DNA from: an uncultured Oxalicibacterium sp.
Lineage (GTDB): Bacteria > Pseudomonadota > Gammaproteobacteria > Burkholderiales > Burkholderiaceae_D
Direction: 5' to 3'
NCBI RefSeq assembly: GCF_913776015.1
Contig: NZ_CAJYMD010000030.1
Location: 1-60,318, forward strand
Length of the DNA: 60,318 nt
Shown: in pieces, positions 37,759 to 39,385 of the stretch
Position numbering within the stretch: position 1 is the first letter of the stretch
How the letters are laid out: each line of letters opens with the position of its first letter
Notes under the pieces: generated by a model
What the model was told of the DNA's origin: nothing
The model's input: the letters and a program-made list of their open reading frames with translations, nothing else
Databases searched by the model: none
Position numbers and translations under genes: made by a program

Positions 37759-38132
37759 GTCGCTCTCCTCAAAAAATGAATATGCTGCTGCACTTCAACA
37801 GTGCTAACGCCTTGCTTAACGTTCATTCAGACGAATGCCGCGCCGAATAGTTCTTTCCAATCAGAAAGCACAGCATCTTCTTGTGCAAGCAATTGTAAGT
37901 AGAAGACAGTACCTACGACCGATAAAGGTAAGAATTAGCAGTGCAATTCAGTCTTGATAATCCCAAGTGTATAAGGGTGGACGTTAGGATGATTACAAGC
38001 CACGCGAGTTTATGGCTTTTCATCAGTGCGCTGCATTCACTTGCAGAATGATGTCCGCTATTTCTAGAAACATGCGTTCTTCGATTGATCGACCAATTTG
38101 TTCTTAGCAATCCAAGGCACGCGAAAGCGTAA

Positions 38133-38158
38133 AAAAGCCGCACATATGTGCGGCTTTT
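38133..38158. terminator. Terminator-like hairpin of ilvC-tail unit B
   Basis: The perfect palindrome AAAAGCCGCACAT/ATGTGCGGCTTTT is followed on the minus strand by a T-run. It is the counterpart of the unit A terminator, with a different but fully paired stem. Confidence 0.8.
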
Positions 38159-38165
38159 AGCTTGA

Positions 38166-38191
38166 GTGCCTGATTCGCTTGCAAGCGAATC
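38166..38191. repeat. Palindrome in ilvC-tail unit B
   Basis: CCTGATTCGCTTG and its complement form a perfect 26-nt palindrome (about 38169-38194) just after the unit B ilvC tail. The equivalent in unit A is CTGTATTCGCTT/AAGCGAATACAG at 38317-38342, with paired substitutions in both arms. Possible transcript-stabilising hairpin or recombination site; role unknown. Confidence 0.7.
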
Positions 38192-38278
38192 AGGATGATG
38201 CCCGCTATATCTACGAAGATTAGTTCTTCGATTGATCAACCAGTTTGTTCTTGGCGATCCAAGGCACGTAAGGACGAT

Positions 38279-38306
38279 AAAAAAGCCACGCAAGTGCGTG
38301 GCTTTT
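38279..38306 (-). terminator. Rho-independent terminator of ilvC
   Basis: The stem AAAAGCCACGC/GCGTGGCTTTT with a four-base loop is followed on the minus strand by six T residues. It lies 63 nt after the ilvC stop, in unit A of the repeat array. Confidence 0.9.
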
Positions 38307-38368
38307 CGTCCGAGCGCTGTATTCGCTTGAAAGCGAATACAGGATGATGCCCGCTATTTTTGCGAAGA

Positions 38369-39385
38369 TTAGTTCTTCGATTGATCGACCAATTTGTTTT
38401 TAGCAATCCAAGGCATCATCGCACGCAGTTTTGCACCGACCTGTTCGATCTCGTGTTCTGCGTTCAGACGACGACGGGAAATCAGCGTAGGTGCGCCAGC
38501 CTTGTTTTCCAGGATGAAGCTCTTCGCGTATTCGCCGGTCTGAATGTCTTTCAGGCACTGACGCATGGCGTTTTTGGTGTCTTCTGTCACGACACGTGGG
38601 CCGGTGACGTATTCACCGTACTCTGCATTGTTCGAGATCGAGTAGTTCATGTTGGCGATACCGCCTTCATAGATCAGATCGACAATCAGTTTCAGCTCGT
38701 GCAAGCATTCGAAGTAAGCCATTTCAGGTGCGTAACCAGCTTCGGTCAGCGTTTCGAAACCAGCTTTGATCAGTTCAACTGCGCCACCGCACAGAACGGC
38801 TTGTTCGCCGAACAGATCGGTTTCGGTTTCTTCACGGAAGTTGGTTTCGATGATGCCGGCGCGGCCACCGCCGTTTGCCATGGCATACGACAGAGCGATG
38901 TCACGTGCCACCCCCGATTTGTCTTGATAGACAGCGATCAGGTGAGGGACGCCGCCGCCTTGTGCGTAGGTGCCGCGCACGGTGTGACCAGGTGCCTTAG
39001 GCGCAACCATGATGACGTCCAGATCGGCACGTGGAACAACTTGACCGTAGTGCACGTTGAAGCCGTGTGCAAATGCCAGCACAGCGCCTTGCTTTGCGTG
39101 TGGTGCGATGTTTTCGCTATAGACCTGCGCGATGTTTTCATCTGGCAGCAGGATCATGATGACGTCAGCAGCTTTCACTGCGTCGTTGACTTCTGCAACT
39201 TTCAGACCGGCCTTGGCAACCTTGTCCCACGATGCACCGCCCTTGCGCAGACCAACGGTCACGTTGACGCCGGAATCGTTCAGGTTTTGTGCGTGGGCAT
39301 GGCCTTGCGAACCGTAACCGATGATGGCAACGTTTTTACCTTTGATCAGCGAGAGGTCACAGTCTTTATCGTAGAAAACTTTCAT
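38369..39385 (-). CDS. ilvC: Ketol-acid reductoisomerase
   Basis: The 338-residue class I enzyme converts acetolactate or acetohydroxybutyrate to the dihydroxy acids of the valine, leucine and isoleucine pathway using NADPH and magnesium. The NADPH-binding loop [13 protein letters not shown] is near residue 24, with catalytic segments [11 protein letters not shown] near 130 and [20 protein letters not shown] near 184. The protein ends [15 protein letters not shown], as in relatives. The last codons are duplicated twice downstream. It is 47 nt after ilvN, so the ilvB-ilvN-ilvC operon is intact. Confidence 0.97.

Follow-up and report, generated by a model that had tools for sequence, protein, structure and literature searches.

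In the 60,318-nucleotide stretch of DNA analysed here (the window; contig NZ_CAJYMD010000030.1 of an uncultured Oxalicibacterium sp.), the last 42 bases of ilvC are repeated twice downstream of the stop codon, which raises the question of how a housekeeping gene comes to be followed by further copies of its own end. The gene, which encodes ketol-acid reductoisomerase (KARI_N/KARI_C; PRK05479), lies on the minus strand at 39385..38369. Its end is found as copy A (38369-38411, the real one), copy B (38220-38262) and copy C (38073-38115), at intervals of 149 and 147 bp. The coding ends of A and B differ by five synonymous and no non-synonymous changes; that of C shows a single synonymous change relative to A and has lost its stop (GCA for TAA). 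An initial annotation made from the sequence alone had described these three tandem copies, the palindrome and terminator-like hairpin behind each, the purely synonymous differences, compensatory changes in the stems, and the altered stop and decayed hairpins of the third unit. All of these features were found again on closer analysis; the compensatory changes separate the stems of A and B, and those of C are degenerate.

Each copy is the first part of a larger unit, also on the minus strand, in which the gene end is followed by a spacer, by hairpin 1 (a palindrome, perfect or decayed) and by the terminator-like hairpin 2. Unit A (149 bp, 38263..38411) starts directly after ATGATGCC (38412..38419), a segment inside ilvC that spans two Met codons and the first bases of a Pro codon. 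It contains the working ilvC end, the spacer, hairpin 1 (38317..38342), hairpin 2 (38272..38311) and the right end ACGTGCC; hairpin 2 has a terminator-like upper stem, a bulge on its 3' side and a lower stem that extends past the U tract. The palindrome in each unit is preceded by an 8-nt element, absent from the initial annotation, that corresponds to the reverse complement of ATGATGCC at the gene junction. We refer to this element as the guide and to ATGATGCC as the target. The guide reads GGCATCAT in unit A (38344..38351) and in unit B (38195..38202), and GACATCAT in the decayed unit C. Unit B (147 bp, 38116..38262) holds a displaced ilvC end whose reading is intact, hairpin 1 (38169..38194) and hairpin 2 (38125..38165, ends approximate). 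Unit C (37981..38115, right end approximate) gives a weak match to our covariance model R1 at 37975-38057 (E 0.0045). Folded as single-stranded DNA with DNA parameters, unit A forms three stems, guide:target pairing, hairpin 1 and hairpin 2, on either strand (z -6.9 and -8.7), equalled by 0 of 200 shuffles; because this fold beats shuffles and the unit recurs in relatives, the window units are not a product of chance. A search for a fourth, decayed ilvC-end copy downstream of C gave no signal above shuffles. No listed Rfam match between 36900 and 39400 reached the gathering score, the best for the units being Leu_leader with 35.2 bits against 50. Farther on, a perfect 34-bp palindrome (36913-36946) that resembles an ordinary terminator separates the SIMPL-domain gene, which lies downstream of ilvC, from the gene after it.

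Copy number at this locus varies among relatives. The window stretch used as query matched 76 of 120 relatives, many of them through the ilvC end alone. The exact degenerate gene-end pattern matched 200 of 245 genomes of the family, and 36 of these have at least two matches, on one contig in 33 cases; 33 of 245 is a lower bound, because the pattern misses decayed copies. Genome G065 has six copies in a single array and also a second ilvC with a unit array of its own (L036, L037); the two genes share 97% identity across 632 compared bp. Two unit subtypes are seen in this genome, and their order differs between the two ilvC loci. Across the order, model R1 under stricter filters matched 7 of 250 genomes, four belonging to this family and three to two other families. 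Genomes G108, G403 and G339, all from other families, have units at ilvC, and in each of them a second, displaced end is present. A second model, R2, matched 5 of 399 genomes of the order, namely G000, G039 and G339 plus G390 and G485, the last two through the dispersed doublets described below. Adjacent copies are 144-161 bp apart in all 58 pairs counted (acceptance window 120-200). Before these counts we dropped loci L002-L006, which were weak terminator matches, and any later duplicate of a stretch already included; units L020_2 and L033_1 were removed as odd, which reduced 61 units to 59.

The differences between adjacent copies bear on how the copies arose. The 58 pairs contain 130 synonymous and 52 non-synonymous differences; 19 pairs are identical and 48 have no non-synonymous difference. 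Five decayed pairs account for 44 of the 52 non-synonymous differences, and the other 53 pairs have 112 synonymous versus 8 non-synonymous differences, compared with an expected synonymous share of 0.21 under random change. Heavily decayed ends (e.g. L014, L015, L024 and L025) are uncounted because detection allows four mismatches at 21 fixed positions. The synonymous excess suggests that most copies look as if they diverged while still serving as working gene ends. Together with the recurrence of the unit in relatives, the 48 conserved pairs agree with the claim of the initial annotation that neutral decay of a duplication would not have preserved the reading. Hairpins favour replication slippage and short tandem repeats are unstable, and the copies in G011 and G153 are almost identical, as neutral slippage at hairpins, serving neither function nor mobility, would produce. 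Such an origin is nonetheless very improbable in view of the synonymous excess in the 53 pairs, the covarying stems and the joint change of guide and target described below.

Loci of genus g28 without a unit reveal what the unit adds. In four genomes with such loci (L066, L067, L070 and L071) a plain ilvC end is followed by other sequence, with a local terminator-like hairpin in three of them. When the 90-bp unit-free flank was compared with seven occupied loci of the same genus (28 comparisons), 67-89 columns aligned with the sequence after the last copy versus 2-50 with that after the first; identity within the aligned columns does not by itself distinguish the two flanks. Because the unit-free flank matches the sequence behind the last copy, the last copy is the host's former gene end. 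Judged by these alignments, the ∼150 bp that begin just past ATGATGCC and end at the right junction are the added part, and the unit-borne end replaces that of the host, which is pushed downstream. The right junction reads ACGTGCC in many units, and other endings occur in genera g28, g15, g32 and g42. In the arrays printed, ATGATG is absent upstream of the second and later copies, which adjoin the right end of the preceding unit.

The initial annotation had explained the stacked ends by repeated recombination or integration at the 3' end of ilvC, leaving the older tail behind, as integrative elements do. The displaced-end part of this model is largely supported by the unit-free sites and by the foreign working ends described below; the part concerning integrative islands is not, for the loci read contain no island or integrase gene between neighbouring copies, and it is the ∼150-bp unit itself that comes and goes. 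Units of 144-161 bp are too short to hold an integrase gene, and the 149-bp unit has no endonuclease ORF inside. Searched outside chromosomes, the exact unit pattern had zero matches. Phage records gave no match to the unit or the gene-end pattern, plasmid records gave seven matches, all of them ilvC ends and none covering 80% of the query, and viral contigs gave one match (L096), judged irrelevant to the units. This IMG/VR contig starts with an ilvC end unrelated to the units, and we take it to be a Neisseria-like chromosome end beside transposase and filamentous-phage-like genes. It could still be argued that the units are remnants of att regions, the scars of integrative elements whose tyrosine integrase used the ilvC 3' end: displaced, synonymously diverged ends are exactly what such integration leaves, as with phage 21 and e14 at icd, and foreign working ends would also follow. 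We regard this as improbable. The phage and plasmid results speak against it, as do the constant size of the units, which recur in many genera without cargo, and the existence of a second address with an adapted guide; among the matches listed, moreover, the duplicated ilvC of G065 is the only case of end copies lying kilobases apart on one contig.

Comparison of units between genomes points to mixed ancestry. The non-coding part of window unit A lies at a distance of 0.18 from a unit of G009, versus 0.29 from unit B, and its coding end is nearest to that of G010. The coding end of unit B is identical to that of G035, a genome of another genus, and for its non-coding part the nearest unit is A, by a small margin (0.29, versus 0.34 for the next one). 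Units most alike within their own genome, the pattern that would favour simple local duplication, are not what is seen for window A, and are what is seen in most near-identical arrays. Mixed ancestry similar to that in the window was observed in G039, G288 and G184, and mixed-ancestry arrays in G000, G288 and G218. In G288 the first unit is G121-like, and the second unit and the gene body are G236-like; in G039 the working end is shared with G172, and the displaced end and the body are shared with G205. By these comparisons, some working ends stem from another lineage. The copies are near-identical inside G011, G153, G255, G127 and G235, indicating that local amplification or conversion also happens and is common.

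The relationship of the two ends to the gene body was also compared as rank correlations (rho) of their distances, computed on a short end segment of 13 third-codon sites. Body distance correlates better with the last, displaced end than with the working end in g28 (0.48 vs 0.18) and in g5 (0.45 vs 0.20, a group that takes in L041 and L047, placed there by likeness, their genus not being given), weakly so in g1 (0.23 vs 0.15) and about equally with both in g32 (0.48 vs 0.45). With occupied loci alone, the values for the last versus the working end are 0.49 vs 0.06 in g28 and 0.43 vs 0.24 in g5, and the order is reversed in g1 (-0.12 vs 0.06) and g32 (0.63 vs 0.82). The switch from a host-like body to a foreign end was located only coarsely, at a resolution short of the junction itself.

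The hairpins are conserved as structures. In an alignment of 38 units (A1), from which 21 of the 59 were left out (12 of g28, aligned separately as A2; L074; and eight near-duplicates), both sides have changed at 25 of 32 base pairs. Four of five covariation measures beat 500 of 500 shuffles, the fifth (further pair types) was matched by 85 of 500, and slid structures fail the test. The lower stem of hairpin 2 runs past the U tract, ends at the right junction and shows double changes at 7 of its 10 pairs; an internal loop in several genera lowers the share of paired cells in this stem to 67%. Hairpin 2 is of the terminator type in the 38 units of A1, and in g28 it keeps the stem and bulge with the U tract absent. 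Folding with RNA parameters predicts guide:target pairing, then hairpin 1, then hairpin 2 for five ilvC units drawn from different genera and for two loci of a second gene, yfhL.

Such stems might instead be 3'-UTR RNA structure acting as terminator, in mRNA stability or as sRNA, the whole arrangement going back to one ancient tandem duplication of the ilvC end and its terminator that was homogenised and exchanged between species by homologous recombination. This possibility deserves weight, since all 58 pairs keep a spacing of 144-161 bp, hairpin 2 is of the terminator type throughout A1 and the units show weak, below-threshold Rfam likeness to leader and sRNA families; for the near-identical copies inside several genomes, plain duplication or gene conversion is also an explanation. 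We consider it rather unlikely, however, on four observations: the hairpin part is wholly absent from the unit-free g28 relatives, the lower stem covaries beyond the U tract, hairpin 2 of g28 has no U tract, and yfhL has a similar unit at its 5' end, in inverted orientation and with a guide adapted to that gene.

The guide is the element that links the unit to its site. When the best match within the spacer was sought, GGCATCAT was exact in 47 of the 59 ilvC units and had one mismatch in the other 12, as a rule directly 5' of hairpin 1 (farther from it in L074). A guide:target match at one locus could by itself be just an mRNA stem. A second address was found in Herminiimonas, where R1 matches (E 1e-6 to 7e-4) fall on the beginning of yfhL (NF033683), a ferredoxin gene adjoining coaD. 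The yfhL unit is inverted, on the strand opposite to the gene, and holds a copy of the first codons and leader of yfhL; its guide, GGACGAAT, is complementary to ATTCGTCC inside the gene. Units of the same architecture are present at yfhL in genera g1, g3, g25, g23 and g30, with three tandem units in G009. Target and guide change jointly between genomes, giving the target/guide pairs ATTCGTCCGT/ACGGACGAAT, ATTCGTCGGT/ACCGACGAAT, AATCGTCGGT/ACCGACGATT and AATCGTCTG/CAGACGATT. Over 14 yfhL loci, 122 of 140 guide bases match, against a mean of 112 for reshuffled guides (p 5e-5); for the two positions that vary, the count is 25 of 28 (p 1.5e-4). These guides were chosen as the best complement in a stretch, and the loci are related and hence not independent, so that about three separate joint changes are represented. 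In 12 of the 14 loci the distance between guide and hairpin 1 is the same, the exceptions being L115, where a different 10-mer was picked, and L135, which has lost its hairpins. A unit-free control was readable in only 3 of the 14 loci, with a best match of 5/8 in each. Among the sites inspected, guide-bearing units occur only at ilvC and yfhL.

Taken together, these data lead us to favour, with modest confidence, the view that the units are non-coding, non-autonomous mobile DNA that is addressed by a guide, carries a displaced gene end and is moved by a hairpin-dependent, single-strand-like reaction. One lineage of units would insert at a single address in the last codons of ilvC, between ATGATGCC and WTGG, and a second at an address in the first codons of yfhL, between ATTCGTC and NGT. 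The unit would bring along a copy of the gene end that lies past the target and shift the host's former end downstream; because it carries this copy, the gene stays intact after insertion. A presumed single-stranded intermediate would fold into three stems bounded by both junctions, namely the guide:target pairing of 8-10 bp, hairpin 1, and a hairpin 2 with a lower stem that closes on the right junction. The left cut would then be set by guide pairing inside the gene and the right cut by that lower stem, and the unit would be joined into the same site elsewhere, which probably includes transfer between cells. A trans-acting enzyme of the type that cuts hairpin-bearing single strands at guide-defined sites may excise and insert the unit, and repeated events at one address, with recombination between copies, would build arrays of up to six copies.

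RAYT/Y1 enzymes probably spread REP and REPIN sequences in trans. When a partner enzyme for the units was sought, Y1 transposase genes were found in 22 of 24 genomes (20 above the family's cut-off). An R2 search of the flanks of 30 of the 36 Y1 matches was negative (best E 0.037), leaving a RAYT/Y1 gene unsupported as a unit-flanked partner. The strand of the units relative to replication was read in G010, where 20 stretches sampled for skew gave positive values as far as 1.53 Mb and negative ones from 1.70 Mb onward; the first sampled stretch contains genes presumably corresponding to dnaN and gyrB. The R1 matches at ilvC (1.26 Mb) and yfhL (2.88 Mb) are both on the plus strand. With the skew, this makes the unit strand the lagging-strand template at ilvC and the leading-strand template at yfhL, a result from one genome and two sites that speaks against a strict IS200/IS605 mechanism.

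REP-like hairpin doublets, with neither guide nor gene end, are dispersed in several genomes (L183-L202, in G019, G028, G035, G233 and G007). They consist of a CTTGCAAG-type palindrome and a GGCGCGAAGC..GCTTCGCGAAACCCC-type hairpin with a 3' bulge. In 20 dispersed doublets tested for a guide:target match none scored above shuffles, the lowest being 48/200. The doublets are probably relatives of the ilvC and yfhL units and plausible as their ancestors. In G028 (L199, L201) the second hairpin of one doublet seems to have received another doublet in its loop (GGCA^TGCGCC). This nesting, which would give exact insertion borders, suggests movement of such doublets. Similar doublets at L124, L128, L130 and L202 are found in two genera, in tandem in G035, between genes that we take to be pilT and pilU. 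G390 contains six copies (L262-L267) of a larger dispersed repeat of a few hundred bp (TAACGCG..TTTCACGTTA) that includes such a doublet.

It is conceivable, and we put it forward tentatively, that the units represent a new kind of coding-free mobile DNA of ∼150 bp, in which a guide of 8-10 nt beside a hairpin addresses one conserved coding sequence, the Met-Met-Pro codons of ilvC or the beginning of yfhL, and the unit repairs the gene, stacks harmlessly and swaps gene ends between species. If so, a mobile element would be living in a housekeeping gene by supplying the missing gene end, and its address would change with a short complementary guide that has visibly changed together with its target. 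Such units would offer a natural system in which to ask how hairpin-acting enzymes pick targets, and would account for alien gene ends and synonymous mosaics entering a gene in the absence of islands. The open-licence papers searched contain no description of ilvC-end units or of such a guide arrangement, and the portions of PMC6337395 consulted have no ilvC content.

A close mechanistic parallel is with IS200/IS605 elements and their non-autonomous derivatives, in which, according to the relevant portions of PMC6006769, a guide directly 5' of a hairpin foot sets the cut site at the left end and a comparable interaction operates at the right end. In the units, likewise, a guide 5' of a hairpin pairs with the inferred left cut site (8 nt at ilvC, 8-10 nt at yfhL). 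They differ in that the guide is 8-10 nt long and pairs by Watson-Crick rules with coding sequence, whereas the IS200/IS605 guide is a tetranucleotide; in that cut site and hairpin are separated by a gene-end copy; in having no transposase within the unit and none found flanked by units; and in the G010 strand result, which is inconsistent with the lagging-strand-template rule. REP and REPIN sequences are, like the units, short non-coding hairpin pairs, and are thought to be spread in trans by a Y1 enzyme (portions of PMC6006769). The dispersed doublets, with similar hairpins in the unit-bearing family, resemble them. The ilvC and yfhL units, in contrast, sit at fixed genic addresses with gene ends, with no RAYT gene seen flanked by them, and lack the GTAG/GGAG foot; a GGCATCAT- or GGACGAAT-type guide precedes the foot in the units aligned or listed. 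In the mORF insertions of Allomyces and Glomus mitochondria, a foreign gene end is brought in and the native end, which matches relatives better, is left downstream (portions of PMC3630166). The units similarly replace a gene end and leave the old one downstream; mORFs, however, carry a homing-endonuclease gene, whereas the units are devoid of such a gene, form arrays and have a guide. Prophages and islands located at the 3' ends of genes, such as phage 21 and e14 at icd, supply a working end and displace the old one, with synonymous differences between the two. The units do all of this as well, yet they have no integrase or island, are structured elements of 150 bp and are also found at a gene start.
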